From: an uncultured Mucispirillum sp.
Lineage (GTDB): Bacteria; Chrysiogenota; Deferribacteres; Deferribacterales; Mucispirillaceae
Direction of reading: 5' to 3'
NCBI GenBank assembly: GCA_944324495.1
Contig: CALUWN010000014.1
Location: 1-49,748 of the forward strand
Length of the DNA stretch: 49,748 nucleotides
The first letter of the stretch is position 1; every line of letters begins with the position of its first letter. A program made the translations under genes and the position numbers. The notes below the pieces were generated by a model that was given only the letters and a program-made list of their open reading frames with translations, was not told where the DNA came from and did not search any database. Below, one piece after another: positions 21,081 through 33,727 of the stretch.

Positions 21081-21776
21081 TTAAGCTGTTATTTCTGCTA
21101 AATATTCTTTATCGTAAGTTAAAAACCCTAAAAGCAGGTGTGATACTGCCAAATATAATGGATATTTATAACTTGTTTTTTTGCAGAACTCAGCCATATT
21201 TTTGCAAGCTGAGCTTATCCAGTCATACATATAATTATTTAAAAACACATACTGCTCTTTTAATACATCTTTAATATTTTCATCAAGCCCTTTATTATGC
21301 ATATCAATTATAAGCCCATTCATTTCACGCATAAATAAAAGTTCCATAGAAATATGGTCATCACTTTCTGTATATCCTGCTGGTTTTTTAAACCTGCGTA
21401 TTTCATAATATTCCAGCACTCGCTCCCATGGAGCATCCATTTCCATACCAGTAATTGCAACCGATGAAGAACATGGTACATTAGAAGCTCCAGTTAAAAA
21501 TATTGAAGTCCACTGTATATTTAGTTCTTCTAAAAGTGCTGATTTATCATCTGCATTTTCTTCAAGTTCAACGTACTTTTTTAATACTTCTACACCATAA
21601 GATATATCATTATTATTATATTCAGAAGCAAGATTAGAAAATACTTCCACATACTTTTTACTTAACCCTATAAACTCCTGTTCCACAGGCAGCTTTAATA
21701 CATATGAAAAATATTCATATATTGCTCCCCTGCCCATAGTTTCATTAAAAAAATCTTGATTATATAATTCTGCCAT
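21081..21776 (-). CDS. TorD/DmsD family molybdoenzyme chaperone
   Basis: A 231-residue all-helical protein. The segment SDDHISMELLFMREM matches the conserved DHxxxELxFM signature of the TorD/DmsD/NarJ superfamily. These cytoplasmic chaperones bind the Tat signal of a molybdopterin enzyme and guard cofactor insertion. The Tat-exported oxidoreductase encoded upstream is the obvious client. AAGGATG precedes the ATG. A 410-bp hairpin-rich spacer separates it from the FeS subunit gene, so it may have its own transcript. Confidence 0.85.
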   Translation of the reverse strand: MAELYNQDFFNETMGRGAIYEYFSYVLKLPVEQEFIGLSKKYVEVFSNLASEYNNNDISYGVEVLKKYVELEENADDKSALLEELNIQWTSIFLTGASNVPCSSSVAITGMEMDAPWERVLEYYEIRRFKKPAGYTESDDHISMELLFMREMNGLIIDMHNKGLDENIKDVLKEQYVFLNNYMYDWISSACKNMAEFCKKTSYKYPLYLAVSHLLLGFLTYDKEYLAEITA

Positions 21777-22187
21777 TGTTTCATCCTTATTATAAAAGTA
21801 TGTAAAAATATATTATGCTTACCTGTTTATTACTTGATAAATCAAATAATTTCAAGTAATAAATATAAACCAAACTTAAAGCATATCTCTAAGTTTGGTT
21901 TATCCTGTTTTATTCTAATTTTGAATACTCTAAAGGCTGTAAATTTTTATTTACAGCATTCAGACTGTCAAAAAAGTTATTTATTATTTCAAACTTATAC
22001 TAAGAAATATTATTCACATTATAAATTAATCTGTTTAACTAAATTTGGAGCATGTATCCAAGTTTAGTTACCATCAAGAGCCTAATAAATGCGGTGAGCA
22101 TTATTAGGCTGGCAAAAAACTGGCGAAAAAATGTATTTTTTCGCCAAGATAAAGGCTGCAAATTTTCATTTACAGCCTTTATATAAT
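21777..22187. repeat. Intergenic spacer with six closely spaced hairpins
   Basis: No convincing gene. Perfect or near-perfect stems occur at 21865-21903 (14 bp), 21936-21957 (9 bp), 22036-22070 (14 bp, one wobble), 22079-22110 (13 bp with a bulge), 22121-22146 (12 bp) and 22151-22180 (13 bp, one mismatch). The second and sixth share AGGCTG(T/C)AAAT and ATTTACAGC arms. The first and third both have A/CTAAxTTTGG-type arms and a GCAT-containing loop. A 77-codon frame across it is probably accidental. Confidence 0.7.
22113..22146 (-). terminator. Probable intrinsic terminator of the molybdoenzyme operon
   Basis: TGGCGAAAAAAT (22121-22132) pairs perfectly with ATTTTTTCGCCA (22135-22146) around a two-base loop. 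On the minus strand it is followed by GTTTTTTG. It lies about 42 bp after the FeS-subunit stop. Confidence 0.65.
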
Positions 22188-22841
22188 TTAGAATTTTTTA
22201 GGTTTTGCCCTAAATAAAAAGTTTGGTTTTGTTTCCATTTTAGATGCAGTATCTTCATGGTTATATGCCATTAATACTGTATCTCTTGCACTTTTTGCAT
22301 CAGGGTATTTTTTCATTAAATAATCATAAGTACCCCAGTCTAATGCACGTGCAAGGCATGAAGCAACACATGCTGGCTGCAGGCCTTCACCAGAAGTTAC
22401 CCTGTCCCAGCACATATCACATTTTCTCATTTTATGCCCTTCCATTACAGTATCCTGTAATATATTTTCATCTTTTGGCTCTTGAAAATCATCTGGTATT
22501 TGTGGTGCTTTATATGGGCATGCTGCAATACAGTCCCCAACACCTTGGCATATGTTTTCATCCACATACACAATACCAGTTTTTTCATCTTTAAATATAG
22601 CCTCTGTAGGGCAAGCGTTCATACATTTTGGGCTGTCGCAGTGGTTACAAGAATATACAGATATAAAAGCCTGCATATTTGGCCATGTACCAGATTCTGC
22701 ATCATGAAGATTACGCAGTTTTGCTCTGCCCGGTTTTAACTGCTGCCAGTCTTTGCAGGCAACAACACAAGTTTGGCAGCCCATACAGCGTGTCTGGTCA
22801 AAAAAGAAATATAATTGGTCTTTTACTAAATTTTCAGCCAT
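22188..22841 (-). CDS. DmsB-like four-cluster iron-sulfur subunit
   Basis: A 217-residue electron-transfer subunit of a DMSO-reductase-family complex. Four Cys groups are visible: CMGCQTCVVAC (19-29), CNHCDSPKCMNACP (65-78), CQGVGDCIAACP (98-109) and CDMCWDRV...CVASC (about 142-163). DmsB-type partners carry four [4Fe-4S] clusters and pass electrons to the catalytic subunit. The third group is odd: the second Cys of CxxCxxC is Val101. E. coli DmsB has Cys102 in this place, and its replacement is known to convert the cluster to [3Fe-4S]. GAGG precedes the ATG. It follows the catalytic gene by 15 bp. No membrane anchor gene (DmsC/NrfD type) is adjacent. Confidence 0.93.
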   Translation of the reverse strand: MAENLVKDQLYFFFDQTRCMGCQTCVVACKDWQQLKPGRAKLRNLHDAESGTWPNMQAFISVYSCNHCDSPKCMNACPTEAIFKDEKTGIVYVDENICQGVGDCIAACPYKAPQIPDDFQEPKDENILQDTVMEGHKMRKCDMCWDRVTSGEGLQPACVASCLARALDWGTYDYLMKKYPDAKSARDTVLMAYNHEDTASKMETKPNFLFRAKPKKF

Positions 22842-22856
22842 AATAGTCTACCTCAC

Positions 22857-25800
22857 TTATGCTTTTGAAATTTTAACACGGCAGTCGTTAGCTAATGTCA
22901 TACCTTGAGCCATACGAGAAGGCCTTGTGTTTGTTAATGTGTTTGCACAGCCGCCAACATCTATGTTTTTATAAGTTTTACCAGATGGAGATGTCCAGCT
23001 TTCAACAGGGTTATACCAAGAACCATGGCCGATATATACAGCATTCGGGCTTACCCTGTTACTTACGTGAGCAGAAGCTACTATTGCACCCCTGTCGTTT
23101 TCTATAACAACTAAATCACATTCTGCAATACCTTTATCTTTTGCAGTTACTGGGTTTATCCAGCAAGTTTCATATACACCATCATCAAGTGGGTTTGCAG
23201 GGTTTATATCTGCTGTATCTATTGTTTTACCAAAATGAGCAGCATTACCTTGTGCATCTCTTTTTGAGTATTTTAACTCGTTTAAGAAACCACTTGAGTT
23301 GTGTGTAGAGTGGGAACGGTACATTATGTGCCAAGTGTTTAATGTTAAATCATAATCAGCTTTACCGTATGTTTTACCAAATGGGTGGCTGTTATCTGCG
23401 TGCCTGCCTTCAATTAATGGTATATACATAGGTACTGGATATACATATCTTGGTTTATTTGATGCTGCAGTAACTGCTGGTGTACCATTATTATTTACAG
23501 CTGATGTACTTTTTGTATAAAGTTTACCATTGTTTAATAATGCACCACCGTTAATTTTACCTGCACCACCTTGCTTAATTGTGATACCGTCATCACCTAA
23601 TGTGGCAAGTGAAGTATAGTCTGTTGTATCTTCATTTATAAAATACCTTGCTTCATAGTCTTCCATATAACGAAGTGAGTATGCTTCAATTCTACCAGTG
23701 TATGTGTTTACTTTATTAGCTTTAGGGTCCTGCCTGAATTTTGCATAGAAAGTATTTACGCCTTTTTCATCATAAGCTGTGCCTAAGCCGTTTGTAAATT
23801 CGCTGTTATTTGCATAGCCTTGGTTATCTTTTAATGGGTCTTTACTTTTTACAACAAAGCCTTTTTTAGCTTCATCCCAACCCATCACTTTACCTGCTGC
23901 ATTAGTTGGTTTAGTTTCAGCAGCTTCATAAGATGCTTTCCAAAAAGCTTCTTCAAATTTACCGCGGTTAGCTACTATATTATCAGCAGTAATGCCTTGA
24001 GTATCAATACCGTTTGCATAGTTTTTACCACCTGCATCGCCTGTAGCTTGAGCAAGTATAAGGCCAATTTCAAGTTCGCATAATGCTTCACCCGGTGGGT
24101 TAATAGCTTTACCAGTAAATACATAGTTTCTACCGCCACCCCAAGAGTTGCCAGAAACTGTATATCTTTCAAAACCCATAGAGCCCGGTAATACCACATC
24201 TGCAAAACGGCATGACGGAGTCATAACGTTATCGCAAACCGTAATAAAATCTAACATATTTTCTTTATCATTATCTTTTAACTGATAAATGGCAGCATGT
24301 AAGTTAGAGTTACCTGCAGTAACAGCTACCTGATTACCAGACATTTGAGTAATCCAGCCAACAGGTGTGGAAACTGTCTGATTAGAACCAGTATTCCACC
24401 TTGCAGGGCGTACTTTTTTAGGCTTAACAGCAAATTTGCCATCTTCATATACAACTTTATCTACTGTAATAGGAGCTTGAAGAGATGCTTCCACGTTTTC
24501 AAGCCAAGTAAAACAAGGTGTAACGTTTGGAGTTGTGCCCCATGCTTCCATGTTATAAGAAGTATGTAATTTACCAACACTTGGGTCTACTGTGCAGAAA
24601 TTAAAGTTTGCCCTGGCACCAAGTGTATCAGCACCAGCAGTTACAGCATTAAGAGCTTTTCTATTATAACCGCCTTTTGCAGGGTCAGTTAATATATATG
24701 TGCCTTTATCTGAACTAAAGTTATCAACCACTTTTTTAGGAGCACCAGTTGCTCTTGCACCAAAACCAGCTGGTTTACCGCCTTTTTTACCTACTGAACC
24801 GTAAGATGTACCCTCTTGTCCATAGTTTCTAACAAGTGTATTAAAGCATATCCAAGAACGTACAATTTCTTCACTTTCTGTACAACGTTGGAAACCAGAG
24901 CCAGTCCATACAGTTACTTTTTCACTTAAAAAGTCATTTGCAAGCTGTTCTATTAATGCTTTATCAATACCTGTGATTTTTGAAGCCCACTCAGTATTTT
25001 TTTCAACCTGACCATAGCAGAATGTGTGTTTTTTAGCTAAATCATCATCTTTTGCAGCTGTCCAAGATTTTGTTTTGTAATCATAATCTGCAAGTTTATA
25101 GTTACGTACGTTATAGCCTATTTGGTCTGGGTAGATTGAAGCAGCTTTATTATAACCTTCATCTACAAGTTTAGTTGATTTACCAAAAATATAAGCAGAC
25201 CAAGATGTACCCGGCTGAACTTTTAATACATCATTAGTTAATGTATTAAATGGAGCAGCTGCTGTGTTTTGGTATGAACTGTTTACATCTGCACCGTCTG
25301 CATCATCTGTATCAAAGAAACCAAAAAGGTATTTACCAATAGCTTTTCTTAAATCAGCAGCTGATGCATCTTTTTTAAGACCATATAAACCTTTTAATTT
25401 TGCAAGTGCATCTTTATTTGTCATAATATAGTGAACCATACCCATAACTAAGGCTGCATCTGTACCGTTTGCGATACCTACATATTTAAAATTAGGGTGG
25501 CTTTCCATAAGAGCAGCAGTTTGAGAATATCTGCCGTCAATTAAATATATTTTTGCATTTGGGTTTTTATCTTTTAATTGTGCAAGGTAATATGATATTT
25601 GAGGTGTCCACTGAGTTTCACTCATATTGTGGCCCCATATAACTATTACATCAGCATTAACTGCATCACTGTATGAGTTACTTGCTGCATCATGAGCCTG
25701 AGAATATGCATAATAACCTTGAATAATAGGTGTTACATGCTCCCAAGCTGGCCAAGAATAGTCTTGAATAGGTCCAAAAGCAGAACGGAAACCAGTATCA

Positions 25801-26459
25801 AAACCTTCAAAACCATGGGTAACACCACCGTCATGAGTTAAGTATGTACCAATACCTGCAACAGCTTTACCGTCCACGCCTAAAGTACCGCCAGAACCTG
25901 AAGCATAAAGCCCATAAACAGAACCATTACCACAGTTTGCTTTAACTTTTGCCATTTTAGTTTTGTAGTACTCAGAAACTTCTTTCCATGTAGCTTTTTT
26001 GAATGTGGTTAAATCACCACGAGTGCCAGTTTGAATTAAAGGATATTTTAAACGGTTTGAATAGTAAAGAGTAGATTTACGGCTTCTACATCTTGGGCAA
26101 GCTCTGTCCTGTGGGTTATCACCCTTATCTAACTCTCTTTCAACACGCTCATCTGTAACGATACGCTTAACAGCACCATCTTTTACAAATGCTTTTAAAA
26201 CGCAGTTTTCACCACCGCAGTTGTGAGGAGTAGCACCCCAGAATATTTCTCCATCCAATGTGCCAGCAGCCTTGTCTGATGATAATGCAGGTGTGTAATT
26301 ATAGTTGCTGTCAGTAACTACACTGGTAGTATTATCACCTGCAGCCTTTTCATCTTTTGACTTAGTACAGCCAAAAAGTGAAACGGCAGCACCAAGTGCA
26401 AGAGAACCTTTTAAAAAAGTACGTCTTGAAACTTGATTTTTTGAAATTTCTTCTCCCAT
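22857..26459 (-). CDS. Tat-exported DMSO-reductase-family molybdopterin oxidoreductase
   Basis: About 1200 residues, much longer than DmsA (about 800). Start chosen at the ATG at 26459, with GGAGG five bases upstream. The leader has a twin-arginine motif (SRRTFLKGS, residues 11-19) and then SLFGC, so Cys31 may be lipidated. The N-terminal FeS region reads ATPHNCGGENC (Cys81, Cys86), then ACPRC (Cys121, Cys124): Thr replaces the usual first Cys, one residue is added before Cys86, and Cys124 is extra. IQDYSW aligns with GDYS of DMSO reductases, making Ser235 the predicted Mo ligand. The C-terminal region (SPNAVYIGHGSWYNP) matches the molybdopterin-dinucleotide-binding domain. Substrate not predictable. 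Probably periplasmic, with the downstream FeS subunit. Confidence 0.92.
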   Translation of the reverse strand: MGEEISKNQVSRRTFLKGSLALGAAVSLFGCTKSKDEKAAGDNTTSVVTDSNYNYTPALSSDKAAGTLDGEIFWGATPHNCGGENCVLKAFVKDGAVKRIVTDERVERELDKGDNPQDRACPRCRSRKSTLYYSNRLKYPLIQTGTRGDLTTFKKATWKEVSEYYKTKMAKVKANCGNGSVYGLYASGSGGTLGVDGKAVAGIGTYLTHDGGVTHGFEGFDTGFRSAFGPIQDYSWPAWEHVTPIIQGYYAYSQAHDAASNSYSDAVNADVIVIWGHNMSETQWTPQISYYLAQLKDKNPNAKIYLIDGRYSQTAALMESHPNFKYVGIANGTDAALVMGMVHYIMTNKDALAKLKGLYGLKKDASAADLRKAIGKYLFGFFDTDDADGADVNSSYQNTAAAPFNTLTNDVLKVQPGTSWSAYIFGKSTKLVDEGYNKAASIYPDQIGYNVRNYKLADYDYKTKSWTAAKDDDLAKKHTFCYGQVEKNTEWASKITGIDKALIEQLANDFLSEKVTVWTGSGFQRCTESEEIVRSWICFNTLVRNYGQEGTSYGSVGKKGGKPAGFGARATGAPKKVVDNFSSDKGTYILTDPAKGGYNRKALNAVTAGADTLGARANFNFCTVDPSVGKLHTSYNMEAWGTTPNVTPCFTWLENVEASLQAPITVDKVVYEDGKFAVKPKKVRPARWNTGSNQTVSTPVGWITQMSGNQVAVTAGNSNLHAAIYQLKDNDKENMLDFITVCDNVMTPSCRFADVVLPGSMGFERYTVSGNSWGGGRNYVFTGKAINPPGEALCELEIGLILAQATGDAGGKNYANGIDTQGITADNIVANRGKFEEAFWKASYEAAETKPTNAAGKVMGWDEAKKGFVVKSKDPLKDNQGYANNSEFTNGLGTAYDEKGVNTFYAKFRQDPKANKVNTYTGRIEAYSLRYMEDYEARYFINEDTTDYTSLATLGDDGITIKQGGAGKINGGALLNNGKLYTKSTSAVNNNGTPAVTAASNKPRYVYPVPMYIPLIEGRHADNSHPFGKTYGKADYDLTLNTWHIMYRSHSTHNSSGFLNELKYSKRDAQGNAAHFGKTIDTADINPANPLDDGVYETCWINPVTAKDKGIAECDLVVIENDRGAIVASAHVSNRVSPNAVYIGHGSWYNPVESWTSPSGKTYKNIDVGGCANTLTNTRPSRMAQGMTLANDCRVKISKA

Positions 26460-26792
26460 ACCTACCTCCAAAGATTTTGCTCATACTTGGATACTAACAT
26501 AGCAAAAAATATAAATCAAATAGTTTTTTATTTTATTTCATACAAAGTAACTATGATTTTAAATATATACTAAATAAGATAATTTTAGTATAATTTAGAT
26601 AAATTTACTATATTATATTATATAATATAAATTGGATACATAACTTTACACTTTTACAATATGAATATTGTATAGAAAAATAAAATTTTTTTGAATTATT
26701 TTTTATAAAAGTTTACTCTTAAAATAATATTGTGTTTTATTACTAATAAGATAGATATAAAATATATTTGAGACTTTTATAAATATTATAAC
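26460..26792. other. AT-rich spacer upstream of the molybdoenzyme operon
   Basis: About 330 bases with no gene. Near its left end it carries the molybdoenzyme promoter and ribosome site. The rest is almost pure A/T, with an 18-nt palindrome at 26613-26630 (TTATATTATATAATATAA) that is low in complexity. No clear terminator for hsdR, tRNA-like repeat or mobile-element end was seen. Confidence 0.6.
26491..26519 (-). promoter_or_regulatory. Promoter candidate for the molybdoenzyme operon
   Basis: On the minus strand TTGATT (26514-26519) and TAGTAT (26491-26496) are separated by 17 bases, about 32 bases before the ATG. No full FNR-type TTGAT-N4-ATCAA box was found. Confidence 0.5.
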
Positions 26793-29700
26793 CTACACTG
26801 CCACAGCAAATGAATCAATAATTTCAACTATTTCGGTGGCTTCATTTTCTGTGAAAAGTTCTAATATACCCCCATGGTTGATATATGGTGCTTTTGAAAG
26901 TATGGTTTTATCTTTAATAAATCCATTACGGCGTATATTTTCTATTAGCTGGTATATAAATTCTATTTGGTTATGGTTATAGTTATTTTCATTAATATAT
27001 TTTGCAAATTTTTTAAGTATAACATCATTATCACGACCAGTGATACTTAATATAAATTCAGTTACTGGCATTTGTCCTGCTGCCTGCCTGTACTGTTCTT
27101 CTGTGCCTAAATCCTGCCATAAAATACGTTCTAAATCTCTAATATCTGCTTTTGATAATTTTTGGTTAGTATAAAGTTTATTAATAACACCACTTGTGCA
27201 GCGTTTTTTTAATTCCTGCTCTACTTTCTTTTTATAGTTTTCTAAATATTTAGTTTTAATAACAGGTTCACTTTCTGCTGCTTCTGTAACTATCATTTTA
27301 TCTTCAAAATTAGTAAAATAGATTTCTTTAGTAGTGCCATCAATATACATTACAAGTGGTCTTAATATTTGCCTTATATTATCAAGTTCTTTAATACTTG
27401 TCTGTTGAGTAACCATGCCATTTGATATTTCTTCTAATAAGTCCTTATGTTTATTTACAATAGGCACTTTCTTTTCCAGCAGTTTATCAGCAATAATATT
27501 AAGCTGATTAATATATCGCATACTATTTTGCTGTCTTAAATTTGCAATCATAATGTTATATATAAGCTCATCAAATTTTAGTGATTTAATATCATCATTT
27601 ATCATCGGCACACATGGTGCAAGTTTTTCAGATAATGATGTAACTTTGCTTGATGTTAAATTATCAAGTGCATTATCTTTTGAATATTCTTTTACAAGCT
27701 TTATATTCTGCCTTACACTTATATCATTTTCTGGCAGAGTTTTTATAGTATTATGCAGGTCATTTTTATATTGATTATATATTTCTTCATGTTCTTTTTT
27801 ATTCTGTATAAAAAGGCATAAATCAAGCTTTTGTTCAAAAAGTTTTGCCATAATACTTTTTGGGCTGCTGTCATTATCCAGCCTGTTTTCTTCTTCGCCA
27901 AAATATTCAAAGTTATTGCATAAATCAAATATGAGAAAATGAGTTTTATCTTCCCCATTAATAAGTTGAGGGCAAAGTCTTGTACCTCTGCCTATCATCT
28001 GTATAAATTTTGAGTATGATTTTACAGGTTTAAAAAATACAAGATTTAAGCAGTCTGGAATATCTACACCAGTATCAAGCATATCAACAGATATTGCAAT
28101 TCGTGCTTTATGGTCGCCTGTTGCAAACTGGTTTACAAGTAAAGTTGAATGTTCCACATAGTTATCAATTAAAATACAGTAATCAAGCAGGCTAGGAAAA
28201 GTTTCTCTAAATATTTTTATAATAAGTTCTGCATGTTTATGGTTTCTAGCAAATATTATAGTTTTTCCAAGGGTATTTCCTTCATTAATATATAGCCCAT
28301 GTTTTAGTAACATTTGCAGTGCCTTTTTTATGGTATCTTTATTAAATATAGTTCTATTTATATGGCTTTCTTCTATGCTTTCAGGTACATTGCCTTCATC
28401 ATCTGCAAAAAGTTCTTCGTATTCTTCTTTTTCTTCTGGGCTTAAATCTTTATAGTGTATACCTCTGTTTAGTATATCAAGTTTATAGTTTGCCACTTGA
28501 TAATTTACCAGATATCCGTCATTTACAGCCTTTTCCAGTTCATAGCCATAAGTTGGGGTTCTATTTTCAAGGTCAAATATTTCATAAGTATTTCTGCCTA
28601 TTTCATTTTTTGGGGTGGCAGTTAGCCCTACCAGCATACTGTCAAAATATTTGAAAATATCTTGATATTTGTTGTATATACTCCTGTGGGCTTCATCTAA
28701 TATTATAAGGTCAAAATGCCCCACAGAGTATGGGTTTGCTTGTGGGTTATTAAGAAGGTTTCGCATGGTTTGGTATGTGGAAAATATAAATGGCATACTG
28801 TAATTAATTTCAGTAGAATTTTCATCATCTGATATGTTGCATAAATTAAAGATTAGATTATCTTTTAAATCTTTTGCTGCATTGTATGCCTGTTTAACAA
28901 GAGAAACCCTGTCTGCCAAAAATAATACATTTTGCACCCAGCCATAGCGGCTTAATACATCTACAAGGGAAAGTATAGTTCTTGTTTTGCCACTTCCTGT
29001 AGCCATTACAAGCAGTGCTTTTCGTCTATTTTCTTGAAAAGCAGAACATATGCTTTTTACTGCCTGTATTTGATAATACCTGTCTGCTATTTCTGGGCAG
29101 ATTTCTACATTATTAATATCTTTTCTATTTTCTAAAATATTTGCAGTTTTTAATAAATCTTCTTCAGAATAAAAACCATATATTTCTCTTGGGTGATAAT
29201 ATCCTTCTTGCCATATAGTAAAATTATAACCATTGCTTAAAAATATAACTGGTTTTATGCCAAATTTTTCTTTTAATGCTATGCAGTATTCTCTTGCCTG
29301 CTCTATACCTGCTTCTTCATACCTATCTTCTCGTTTTGCTTCTATTATGGCAATAGGTGTGCCTTCTTTATTAAGCAGAACATAATCTATCTTACCCTTC
29401 CCAGTTTTTGAATATTTATATTTATCTATAATATATTCATTTATCCAGTTTTCACCTTCTTTCCAGCCAGCTTCTCTAAGCATTGTATCAATGTAGACTT
29501 TTCTTGTTTCTTTTTCTGATAAGTTTAGTGGTTTTGGTATAAATTTATCTTTTTTAGAAAGCCTTATTTTAGTATGGTCAATTTTTTCTTCTTCTGAAAC
29601 TTTTACAAGCGGTGTTTCTTCATCTATATTTTCTTTTTGTATTGGAAGTGTATTTTTTATAATATCAATATCAAACTTATTATTAATATATTTACTTTCT

Positions 29701-30113
29701 TTAGAGTAGCAATAATATATAAAATCACATACTATAAAAAGGTTTTCTAAAGCAACTTCTGCTTCATTTAATGTGGTTTTATTATTAAAACTGTGGGCAG
29801 AGCGGTTGCCTAATATCCGCAGGAAATCAATACTTTTATATATTTCATTTCCCACAATATCACGAAAAGTTTTTATGGTAATAAGTTTAGAAAGTGGGTC
29901 TTTTTCTATATTTATCTTTTTCGTTTCAGTGTTTAATGCACTATCGTATGTATATATCCACTTTACAGCATATTCTAAAGCCTTTCTAGTGAGCATAATG
30001 GTAGTATCAGGGTCTTGTGGTTGAAAATTATAAGAACTTTCTGCCACTACTGCCACATGGTATAAACCTTCAAACTGTTTTTCTTCTGACAAAAAGTAGA
30101 AGTTTGATGCCAT
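26793..30113 (-). CDS. hsdR: Type I restriction enzyme HsdR (motor/nuclease) subunit
   Basis: A 1106-residue subunit that translocates and cuts unmodified DNA. The N-terminal ~110 residues resemble DUF4145 (TIMLTRKALEYAVKWIY). Then follows the HsdR nuclease domain with the catalytic EAKRE (IAIIEAKRED, about residue 257). The SF2 motor has Walker A ATGSGKT (about 370), DEAHRS (about 471) and TATPKNEIG, then motif VI in QMIGRGTRLCPQ. Its ATG overlaps the FRG gene stop (TAATG). The operon order hsdM-hsdS-FRG-hsdR implies one active system. All key motifs look intact. Confidence 0.95.
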   Translation of the reverse strand: MASNFYFLSEEKQFEGLYHVAVVAESSYNFQPQDPDTTIMLTRKALEYAVKWIYTYDSALNTETKKINIEKDPLSKLITIKTFRDIVGNEIYKSIDFLRILGNRSAHSFNNKTTLNEAEVALENLFIVCDFIYYCYSKESKYINNKFDIDIIKNTLPIQKENIDEETPLVKVSEEEKIDHTKIRLSKKDKFIPKPLNLSEKETRKVYIDTMLREAGWKEGENWINEYIIDKYKYSKTGKGKIDYVLLNKEGTPIAIIEAKREDRYEEAGIEQAREYCIALKEKFGIKPVIFLSNGYNFTIWQEGYYHPREIYGFYSEEDLLKTANILENRKDINNVEICPEIADRYYQIQAVKSICSAFQENRRKALLVMATGSGKTRTILSLVDVLSRYGWVQNVLFLADRVSLVKQAYNAAKDLKDNLIFNLCNISDDENSTEINYSMPFIFSTYQTMRNLLNNPQANPYSVGHFDLIILDEAHRSIYNKYQDIFKYFDSMLVGLTATPKNEIGRNTYEIFDLENRTPTYGYELEKAVNDGYLVNYQVANYKLDILNRGIHYKDLSPEEKEEYEELFADDEGNVPESIEESHINRTIFNKDTIKKALQMLLKHGLYINEGNTLGKTIIFARNHKHAELIIKIFRETFPSLLDYCILIDNYVEHSTLLVNQFATGDHKARIAISVDMLDTGVDIPDCLNLVFFKPVKSYSKFIQMIGRGTRLCPQLINGEDKTHFLIFDLCNNFEYFGEEENRLDNDSSPKSIMAKLFEQKLDLCLFIQNKKEHEEIYNQYKNDLHNTIKTLPENDISVRQNIKLVKEYSKDNALDNLTSSKVTSLSEKLAPCVPMINDDIKSLKFDELIYNIMIANLRQQNSMRYINQLNIIADKLLEKKVPIVNKHKDLLEEISNGMVTQQTSIKELDNIRQILRPLVMYIDGTTKEIYFTNFEDKMIVTEAAESEPVIKTKYLENYKKKVEQELKKRCTSGVINKLYTNQKLSKADIRDLERILWQDLGTEEQYRQAAGQMPVTEFILSITGRDNDVILKKFAKYINENNYNHNQIEFIYQLIENIRRNGFIKDKTILSKAPYINHGGILELFTENEATEIVEIIDSFAVAV

Positions 30114-31072
30114 TATTTGCCGTATCTCCCTTTAAAATCTGCTACTATATTTCTACATACTCTATCCACATCATCATGAAAAAGAGTGCTTTCTGTAATA
30201 TTAAGCATTTTTAATTCTTCTAACAAGTGTTTTTTACTTTTTGCAGGTATAATATATCGTGCAATAATATTTTTATGCTCTTTTGGGATATGGGAAAGAT
30301 TTGTATTTTTAATTATAATTTTATTTGTATAATCATGGTTTAAAACATATTTATAATCATTAAGTATTAAAATAAAATTTCCTTGTTGTAAATAAAGTCG
30401 TTCAAACAGTCTTGGTGGATATATAAAATACATATCATTAATTACTTTATTTATAAAATATTCACCATTATTGTATCTGATGTATTCTTTAATATTTGTA
30501 GTAGCAATATTTTTTCTAACAGCCAATTCATAAAATAATGTTTCTAATGTTATACTATGAGTGGCAATAATATCTGACCTACCCATATATTTGACAATAT
30601 CATGATATAATGGATTTTCAAAATATGTTTCATACTGATTACCTATTATAAATATTTCACCATCTTTATTATTATCAGGATTATTTTTATCTTCGCAAGC
30701 AAAATATAATGCAACTAATGGGTTTGCTGTAATATCTAAAAGTCTTGTGGGAATGCCGTAGTGTTGTAGTTTTACAAGTAAATCAAGAGGATTATCCGTT
30801 TCAGAAAAAAGAACAGGATATTCATTTTTTGCTTTATTTATTAAAGCTACTTCTAATGAACTGACATAAAAAGGTACATCTTTTTGTATTCTGCTTATTG
30901 ATGGAACAAGTTCATATTCCTTATTATGTTGCCCCCTGTAAAACAAATCAATAGTATATTTTCTTTTTTCACTAAACTCTAAATTTTTGTACCTTTCTAA
31001 CTCTTTTACATTATTCAGTTTTTCCATAAATTCAGCAATGGTGTTTATTTCTTCAAGTTTTTCTTCGCTCAT
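30113..31072 (-). CDS. FRG domain protein embedded in the restriction operon
   Basis: A 319-residue protein with the FRG domain. It contains LFYRGQHNKEYELVPSISR (about 43-61), where F-R-G is Phe44, Arg46, Gly47, and LQHYGIPTRLLDITANPLV (about 102-120), the second conserved block. FRG proteins are common in phage and defence loci, but their chemistry is not established. The gene fills the space between hsdS (four bases away) and hsdR (overlapping TAATG), so its expression is tied to the restriction system. It may act as an accessory or backup effector; that is inference. Confidence 0.88.
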   Translation of the reverse strand: MSEEKLEEINTIAEFMEKLNNVKELERYKNLEFSEKRKYTIDLFYRGQHNKEYELVPSISRIQKDVPFYVSSLEVALINKAKNEYPVLFSETDNPLDLLVKLQHYGIPTRLLDITANPLVALYFACEDKNNPDNNKDGEIFIIGNQYETYFENPLYHDIVKYMGRSDIIATHSITLETLFYELAVRKNIATTNIKEYIRYNNGEYFINKVINDMYFIYPPRLFERLYLQQGNFILILNDYKYVLNHDYTNKIIIKNTNLSHIPKEHKNIIARYIIPAKSKKHLLEELKMLNITESTLFHDDVDRVCRNIVADFKGRYGK

Positions 31073-31075
31073 ATT

Positions 31076-32131
31076 CTACCCAAAATATTCCTGCATTAAA
31101 GCATTGTATAATGTTTCTAACTGATTAAGACTTGATTTTATATTTTCTTTATTTTTTTCCACCTGCTCCACAAACTCTGCAAACTGGTTTTGTAAATCAA
31201 GCGGGGGGATAATTAAAGCACAGCTTTTTATCATAGGTGAAGTTAATTGAGCTACTCCAGAACCAGAACTTTTTATATTTATACTATTTATTTGATGGCA
31301 TAAAAATAATATTGAAAAATTATTGCTTGGAATTACACATAAAAGCCTTACTATTGGATAAAACGGTTTAAAATGTGGGAAACAATATCCAATAGTTCCT
31401 CTAGCCGATACTGTAACACAAGGTTGTTGTATTCTCGCATTATTCGTATATCCATATAGCATATTTTCTGCTAACCCATTACTATATATAGGAATATTAT
31501 AATCTTCATTTTTTTCTTTAGAAAAATTATCTAATGGAACATCACCACCAACAACAACATTACACACTTCCCCTAATTTTTTCTTTTCCCAGCCTTTTGG
31601 GTTTAATACAGGGTCGCCAAACATTTCAATAAATTTAGATTTTACTAAAATATCCAGTTTCTCAAGCTGTTCTTTTCTCATACTGATAAGTGATGTAACC
31701 TTATCTAATACCGCCACTATTTCTTTTTGAGTTTGGACTGGTGGAATAGAAATAATAATATTTTTTAATGATTCCTGATTTAATTTTGGTGGAATACTTT
31801 TTGTTAATAAGTTATATATATCTACTTTTTTTAATGCATAGTATAGAAACATTAAGTTTAAGGTATTATTTTTTGGTTGAATTATGTGAGCATGATTATT
31901 TACCCAAAACTTACCACTAGCAATATTCACAACAGGTGAGTTATCTTTATTTATAACACTTCCATCCTCACCTACTAATATGTATAAACCATCAAAAATA
32001 TATTTATCTACATAATCTTGAATACCATTGGCTCCATAATAAGGATATATACCTTTTACTCTTTTATGCTTTGCCACAGGTTTTCTTAAACTGTCATATA
32101 TATTTATGACTTCCCCTAACTTTACTTTCAT
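31076..32131 (-). CDS. hsdS: Type I restriction specificity subunit HsdS
   Basis: A 351-residue DNA-recognition subunit shared by the methylase and nuclease. It has two half-repeats, each a target recognition domain followed by a helical spacer. The first ends SIPPVQTQKEIVAVLDKV and the second IIPPLDLQNQFAEFVEQVE, the typical PPxxxQ boundary. The second half begins at about residue 181 (GWEKKKLGEVCNVVVGGDVP). Its ATG overlaps the hsdM stop (ATGA). The target cannot be predicted by eye. No inverted second hsdS copy is nearby. Confidence 0.94.
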   Translation of the reverse strand: MKVKLGEVINIYDSLRKPVAKHKRVKGIYPYYGANGIQDYVDKYIFDGLYILVGEDGSVINKDNSPVVNIASGKFWVNNHAHIIQPKNNTLNLMFLYYALKKVDIYNLLTKSIPPKLNQESLKNIIISIPPVQTQKEIVAVLDKVTSLISMRKEQLEKLDILVKSKFIEMFGDPVLNPKGWEKKKLGEVCNVVVGGDVPLDNFSKEKNEDYNIPIYSNGLAENMLYGYTNNARIQQPCVTVSARGTIGYCFPHFKPFYPIVRLLCVIPSNNFSILFLCHQINSINIKSSGSGVAQLTSPMIKSCALIIPPLDLQNQFAEFVEQVEKNKENIKSSLNQLETLYNALMQEYFG

Positions 32132-33642
32132 ATCATTCTCTCTAAGTCTGATAATCCGCTGGATATTTCTTTTTCCATTTCCTGCAATTCTTTTAAAATA
32201 TCTTGGACTGGTGGATATTCTACTGGGGTATATTCCACTTCTTTATATTTATTTATAGATAAATCATAGCCGTTATTTACTATTTCCTGCCTTGGTACAA
32301 AAAAGCTTTTATCTGTCCGTTTATTATCCTTATCTTTTTCCCTGTTGTGAAATCTGTTTATAATATCTGCTATATCACTTTTTTCTATCTTTTCCCTTTT
32401 ATCATCAAGTGAGTAGCCATCACTTTCCATATTATAAAACCATACATTATCTGTATCTTGGTGGTTTGTTTTAGTAAATATTAGGATACCTGTGGATACT
32501 CCAGAATATGGCTTAAAAACACCAGAAGGCATTGAGATTACAGCTTCTAATTTTTGGTTATCCACAAGCTCTTTTCTAACAGCTTTATGGGCGTTTGATG
32601 AGCCAAATAATACACCATCTGGTACAATAGAAGCACATCTGCCACCTAATTTTAATGACTTTATAAATAATGCTATAAAAAGCAGCTCTGTTTTTTTAGT
32701 TTCCGTTAGTGCCAGTAAGTCTGGTGAAGTGATAGATGTATCAATAGAGCCAGTAAATGGAGGGTTTGCAAGGATTAATGAATATTTATCCCTGTCTGTA
32801 TTTTGTTTTGAAATACTGTCTTTATATAATACATTTGGGTTATCTATACCGTGAGCCACTAAGTTCATAGCAGCTATTCGTAACATGGTGCTGTCCATAT
32901 CATAGCCTGTAAATGTATTATTATTAAATTTATCACGGTTTGCTGCATTATGATATATTTCTTTTTCATAGTTTTTCTTTAAATATTCACCAGCTGCTAC
33001 TAAAAAGCCTGCTGTGCCGCATGATGGGTCGCATATTGTATCGCTTATCTCTGGTTTCATAAGCTCCACCATCATATCTATAATATGCCTTGGTGTTCTA
33101 AACTGACCGTTTGTGCCTGATGTGGATATTTTAGAAAGTATATACTCGTATACATCGCCTTTTATATCTTTATCAGTTGACTGAAGATTAGAAATAAGAT
33201 TATACATTTCCTGGCATTTTATAAGTATGGAGTTTAATTTTAATGCTGTATCTATTTTAAATACCGCATCTTTCATATATTTGGCATAGTTGTTATCACT
33301 TTCTTTATACATATTTTTTATAAATGGAAATATACCATATACCATAAGATTATACTGATTTTCTGCATTTTGCTGTATAAGGTTGCTCCATTTATAATCT
33401 GACTTTTTAAATGTTATTTTTTTACCGTCTATATCTTTTTCTTCTTCACCAGAAAAAATACTGTCGTATTTATAGCCATAAAGTTTAGATTCTTTAAGTT
33501 TTCTATCGTCCATTGCCCCAAGGTCGTGTATAAACATAAGATATGTAATCTGCTCCACAACAGTAAGCGGGTTTGTAATACCACCAGACCAAAAAGCATT
33601 CCATATATCATCTATCTTATTCTTTAACTCACCAGTAATCAT
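32128..33642 (-). CDS. hsdM: Type I restriction N6-adenine methylase HsdM
   Basis: About 504 residues. Start chosen at the ATG at 33642 (MITGELKNKIDDIW) because GGAG lies six bases upstream; an upstream in-frame extension to 33711 has no such signal and reads through the leader. The N-terminal helical HsdM_N domain is followed by the SAM-binding DPSCGTAGFLVAAG (about 203) and the catalytic NPPF (about 291, in LILANPPFTG), diagnostic of N6-adenine methylation. First gene of the operon. Confidence 0.95.
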   Translation of the reverse strand: MITGELKNKIDDIWNAFWSGGITNPLTVVEQITYLMFIHDLGAMDDRKLKESKLYGYKYDSIFSGEEEKDIDGKKITFKKSDYKWSNLIQQNAENQYNLMVYGIFPFIKNMYKESDNNYAKYMKDAVFKIDTALKLNSILIKCQEMYNLISNLQSTDKDIKGDVYEYILSKISTSGTNGQFRTPRHIIDMMVELMKPEISDTICDPSCGTAGFLVAAGEYLKKNYEKEIYHNAANRDKFNNNTFTGYDMDSTMLRIAAMNLVAHGIDNPNVLYKDSISKQNTDRDKYSLILANPPFTGSIDTSITSPDLLALTETKKTELLFIALFIKSLKLGGRCASIVPDGVLFGSSNAHKAVRKELVDNQKLEAVISMPSGVFKPYSGVSTGILIFTKTNHQDTDNVWFYNMESDGYSLDDKREKIEKSDIADIINRFHNREKDKDNKRTDKSFFVPRQEIVNNGYDLSINKYKEVEYTPVEYPPVQDILKELQEMEKEISSGLSDLERMI

Positions 33643-33691
33643 ATTATCTCCAATATATATTAATGTGATAGTACAATATAATATACCACCA

Positions 33692-33706
33692 CGACACTCA
33701 CTGTCG
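33692..33706 (-). other. Inverted repeat in the hsdM leader
   Basis: CGACA-CTCAC-TGTCG lies in the 5' leader of hsdM, about 20-35 bases after the predicted transcription start. It could be an operator or a small RNA hairpin that modulates expression of the restriction operon. Short and unproven. Confidence 0.3.
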
Positions 33707-33727
33707 CACATAATTTATTTACGATAC

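Follow-up and report, generated by a model that had tools for sequence, protein, structure and literature searches.

The window analysed here, a 49,748-nucleotide stretch of a contig from an uncultured Mucispirillum sp. (Deferribacterota), carries three consecutive genes on its minus strand: a DmsA/YnfE-like molybdopterin oxidoreductase (the catalytic, or A, subunit), a DmsB/NrfC-like four-cluster ferredoxin (the electron-transfer, or B, subunit) and a TorD/NarJ-family maturation chaperone (Table 1). The best-matched family of the A protein is DmsA/YnfE (TIGR02166, DMSO/selenate reductase A; E 1e-83), at a score far below the curated family cut-off (281.6 vs 777.7 bits), and the protein carries a Tat signal and a lipobox-like LFGC. 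Its true start is probably the ATG at 26459, with GGAGGT just upstream, rather than the listed TTG (region 26457-26471); from the ATG the protein has 1200 aa, although residue numbers below are counted from the TTG. No DmsC-like ORF adjoins the A and B genes: a DmsB-like gene is present and the TorD-like gene comes next. Two terminator-like hairpins on the minus strand (21903-21865 and 22147-22120) separate the B gene from the chaperone gene (gap 21860-22180), and directly upstream of the operon lies a restriction-modification-like block of R, S and M type ORFs plus an extra ORF (26793-33711).

Table 1. Features of the molybdoenzyme locus, in window positions; residues belong to the A subunit unless the B subunit is named.
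Feature	Position	Strand	Basis
Catalytic (A) subunit, DmsA/YnfE-like molybdopterin oxidoreductase	22857..26471	-	TIGR02166, PF00384, PF01568 and TAT_signal matches
Electron-transfer (B) subunit, DmsB/NrfC-like four-cluster ferredoxin	22188..22841	-	
TorD/NarJ-family maturation chaperone	21081..21776	-	PF02613 E 3e-12; TorD E 3e-9
Thr81, first FS0 ligand position (C2-4), non-Cys	26229..26231	-	Alignment to the first Cys of E. coli DmsA FS0
Cys85, classical FS0 ligand 2	26217..26219	-	Aligned to DmsA; invariant
Cys90, classical FS0 ligand 3, C-x4-C spacing	26202..26204	-	Aligned to DmsA; invariant
Cys125, classical FS0 ligand 4	26097..26099	-	Aligned to DmsA; invariant
Cys128 (C4+3; Gly in DmsA), candidate relocated FS0 ligand	26088..26090	-	Alignment
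Ser239, predicted Mo ligand	25755..25757	-	Alignment with DmsA Ser205 (leader counted; Ser205 also in Salmonella DmsA)
B-subunit Val101, in place of second Cys of DmsB third motif; predicts [3Fe-4S] FS4	22539..22541	-	

Across its FS0 region the A subunit reads ...FWGATPHNCGGENCVLK...DRACPRCRSRK... and departs from the C-x3-C-x3-C-x(n)-C-x-R-G motif of DmsA/YnfE: aligned with E. coli DmsA, T81-x3-C85-x4-C90...C125-P-R-C128 stands against C-x3-C-x3-C...C-x-R-G. A sequence-only reading of this DNA had picked out three departures, namely Thr in place of the first Cys, an extra residue before the third Cys and an additional Cys in ACPRC past the usual final ligand, and the alignment bears out all three: Thr81 pairs with the first DmsA Cys, the Cys85-x4-Cys90 interval is one residue longer than in DmsA, and Cys128 pairs with a Gly. 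The motif is not a chance occurrence, since ATPHNCGGENC..CPRCRS is kept in orthologues from other Mucispirillum genomes or bins (L003-L006) and the C4+3 position is Cys in all of 22 diverse relatives. What the subfamily conserves is a linked pair of changes: loss of the first Cys and gain of the C4+3 Cys. The spacing between the second and third Cys varies widely among relatives, from x3 upwards, so the extra residue is a local variant and not itself a signature.

We counted both positions in 133 distinct N-terminal FS0 domains, drawn from Deferribacterota and from matches in about 330 genomes outside that phylum. The Mucispirillum subunit falls in what we call the Deferribacterota CxRC subfamily, defined by no Cys, His or Asp at C2-4 and a Cys at C4+3; this swapped state is found in 77 of the 133 domains, where the C2-4 residue is Ser (30), Thr (25), Ala (9), Gly (7), Ile (4), Val (1) or Met (1). 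Conversely, C4+3 is never Cys in the 49 domains whose first position is taken by a ligand-type residue (Cys, His, Asp, or a Cys of the CxxC type); at C2-4 itself, 33 of them have Cys and 15 have His or Asp. Three further proteins with an N-terminal Cys ligand (L105, L106, L170) were counted apart from the 49. A ligand-type C2-4 residue and a C4+3 Cys occur together in none of the 133 domains, and both are missing in four proteins of a single clade (L159, L161/L221, L211, L219). The association between the two positions has a Fisher p of 3e-29, uncorrected for kinship.

Two small groups depart from this pattern in other ways. The four proteins with neither ligand (MopB proteins at L159:970-4074, L161:1444-4638, L211:1486-4782 and L219:1384-4482) have Gly at both the first FS0 position and C4+3; three of the four have a Cys at C2-7 or C2-8 and L219 has none. 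Two other MopB proteins (L105:7773-10400, CAHNCGSRH; L169:1280-3952, CWADCGSKG) have the first two FS0 Cys without the third.

Trees were built on the sequence left after trimming away all residues up to the C4 motif. On the tree, the first-position trait and the C4+3 trait each change four times. Phylogenetically independent pairs of proteins gave no case in which the two traits differed in the same direction, two to three in which they differed in opposite directions and at most one without difference; the independent transitions, two to four in number, are too few for a significant sign test. A classical clade (CPHNC...CAKG) is nested within the swapped clade (support 100/100), and an AU test (25 rows, simplified model) rejected the grouping of all swapped rows of the main branch as one clade (p-AU 0.0008; 2e-15 without L130). 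The test thus speaks against a swapped state that arose only once, so the two positions changed together at least two or three times, and this number of coupled transitions is secure. L158/L160 (CVRC) form a separate swapped group that arises beside the proteins with neither ligand. L130 may represent a further re-swap, which is not secure given that grouping the nested classical rows without it has p 0.14.

The reading that best accommodates these patterns, to which we assign a probability of roughly three in four, is that FS0 is a four-Cys [4Fe-4S] cluster with one ligand relocated, held by Cys85, Cys90, Cys125 and Cys128. The gene product would be a DmsA-type reductase subunit, exported by Tat and carrying a Ser-ligated Mo-bisPGD, in which Cys128, located three residues past the classical last ligand, stands in for the missing classical first Cys; the CPRC pair would then supply two of the four thiolates, alongside Cys85 and Cys90. 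Electrons would move through FS0, linking Mo centre and B subunit in the usual way, presumably toward reduction of an S- or N-oxide-like acceptor. Several observations point this way. First, the C2-4 residue is free to vary (Ala, Gly, Ile and Val all occur) while C4+3 is fixed, which indicates that the C2-4 residue is not a ligand. Second, a cofactor-free AlphaFold2 model (mean pLDDT 74.6, about 66-87 in the FS0 region) predicts Cys125 just before, and Cys128 inside, a short helix at 70-73 (model residues 69 and 72), an i, i+3 arrangement with the two one helical turn apart. Engineered ferredoxins offer a parallel, in that a cluster can recruit a nearby free Cys after the loss of a ligand. Third, an uncompensated loss of the first ligand should come at a cost: the PDB 3ir6 sequence contains a NarG chain with Ser at the first FS0 ligand position, and this form is described as being without both FS0 and Moco (PMC10609526). 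Within a large branch of DmsA-like enzymes in Deferribacterota, it is likely that one of the four Cys ligands of FS0 moved from before C2 to C4+3 and that lineages exchanged the two ligand sets repeatedly, perhaps with a reversion to the classical one, the enzyme being kept working throughout.

The main competitor keeps three ligands: FS0 could be a [3Fe-4S] cluster on Cys85, Cys90 and Cys125, with Cys128 a nearby non-ligand thiol of structural or redox-tuning importance. The three classical Cys are invariant, a [3Fe-4S] FS0 has a precedent in the AioA/IdrA lineage (PMC10100899), and the four relatives with Gly at C4+3 seem to manage with three classical Cys; a three-Cys FS0 may indeed be viable in some of these proteins, which is a point against relocation. 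What a [3Fe-4S] cluster leaves unexplained is why the C4+3 Cys is fixed exactly where the first ligand is absent and never found where it is present, and we consider it unlikely.

A second alternative concerns the partner subunit. The sequence-only reading had combined the FS0 changes with Val101 of the B subunit (context CQGVGDC) into a joint remodelling of two clusters in the electron path, and had taken this to suggest an unusual redox window or substrate. The complex does have both changes, and the FS0 half of the argument stands as the conserved linked pair, but the joint remodelling does not: among adjacent A/B pairs, five swapped A subunits have a B subunit with the FS4 Cys intact, and in 12 pairs a B subunit lacking it accompanies an A subunit that keeps the classical first Cys, so the two changes are separable and their coupling was rejected. 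Most of the B subunits collected are without the second Cys of the third motif, and its absence is standard at the FS4 site of type II enzymes, where the Val101 position is Ala in PcrB and His in EbdB by alignment, and FS4 of EbDH is [3Fe-4S] (PMC8840923). FS4 of the Mucispirillum B subunit is thus probably [3Fe-4S] as well; Val101 is an ordinary instance of a known arrangement that is not strictly coupled to the FS0 change. No sign of an unusual redox window or substrate was found, and the Ser that ligates Mo in DmsA is conserved as Ser239 by alignment. Four thiols are still available for FS0, from which an ordinary [4Fe-4S] cluster is expected. We regard a jointly tuned redox window as quite improbable. 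FS0 is best read as rearranged rather than degraded, next to an ordinary FS4.

It is more doubtful still that the fourth ligand is His83 of PHNC, which would make FS0 a His/3Cys cluster as in NarG but with the His placed elsewhere. A His ligand to FS0 is established for NarG and EbDH (PMC8840923), and a His at C2-2 occurs in 67 of the 77 swapped rows; yet it occurs also in 21 of the 33 domains with the classical Cys, and 10 swapped proteins have Asn, Tyr or Ser there instead. On this distribution across the 133 domains His83 is rejected as the replacement ligand. Least credible of all is the complete loss of FS0, as in DorA/TorA, with the cysteines as remnants: Pfam Molybdop_Fe4S4 has no match to the A protein of the window, but it also misses His- or Cys-type relatives (L092, L060) and the Asp-type L142, three Cys never vary and a fourth is fixed, and the locus also encodes an FeS-rich B subunit and a chaperone.

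The Mucispirillum enzyme can be compared with the systems it most resembles. With DmsA/YnfE/YnfF it shares the fold, the Ser Mo ligand, the Tat signal, a four-cluster B partner and a TorD/DmsD-type chaperone; it differs in having Thr for the first FS0 Cys, Cys rather than Gly at C4+3, a longer A subunit (1200 vs 814 aa), a lipobox-like Cys and no DmsC gene alongside. The type II enzymes NarG/EbdA/PcrA likewise carry something other than Cys where the first FS0 ligand sits, and their B partners PcrB and EbdB are without the FS4 Cys that is missing from the B subunit here, but in these enzymes the first ligand is His, C4+3 is Gly and the Mo ligand is Asp, where Mucispirillum A has Thr81, Cys and Ser, respectively. 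Salmonella Psr1A/Psr3A-type paralogues are also DmsA-like with a variant FS0, the variation there being one of Cys spacing (C4XC3XCXnC vs C3XC3XCXnC) with the first Cys kept; the 2025 preprint describing them divides DmsA-like FS0 motifs by Cys spacing only (PMC12636705). AioA/IdrA represent another altered FS0 within the DMSO reductase superfamily, but one that is [3Fe-4S] and paired with a Mo lacking a protein ligand (PMC10100899).

The swap was seen only in Deferribacterota, with large phyla thinly sampled. When a swap-only profile was run against 386 genomes of many phyla, the only matches outside Deferribacterota were proteins whose first position is Cys or Asp; further searches, each in the phylum of one of four other genomes, took in 2-30 genomes apiece. 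Plasmid searches returned relatives but no swap member (the first Cys is kept in all those examined, L104-L107), searches of viral contigs returned no relatives, and we found no description of the swapped FS0 motif in the open literature. If the relocation is real, a natural and repeatedly evolved ligand swap would show that the FS0 site can be rewired without losing the enzyme, and would allow a clean test of how individual ligand positions determine the potential and maturation of FS0. There is a warning for annotation as well: the standard Pfam Fe4S4 domain model misses the swapped proteins, and motif filters would call them clusterless.

M. schaedleri has an uncharacterised DMSO-reductase-like system whose expression was raised in inflammation (PMC5285517). 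Secreted cytochromes of about 160 aa with 5-6 CxxCH motifs adjoin many of the related molybdoenzyme operons in Deferribacterota (L023:3030-3500, L031:883-1464, L010:3032-3517 and others); the one at L023 matched nothing in NCBIfam or in the Mucispirillum genome of the window. That genome has only one close member of the catalytic subunit, and another genome of the Mucispirillum family (G038) has 15 catalytic-subunit matches at E <= 1e-20, a large paralogue expansion that includes L034, L051, L058-L060, L065, L068-L070 and L157.
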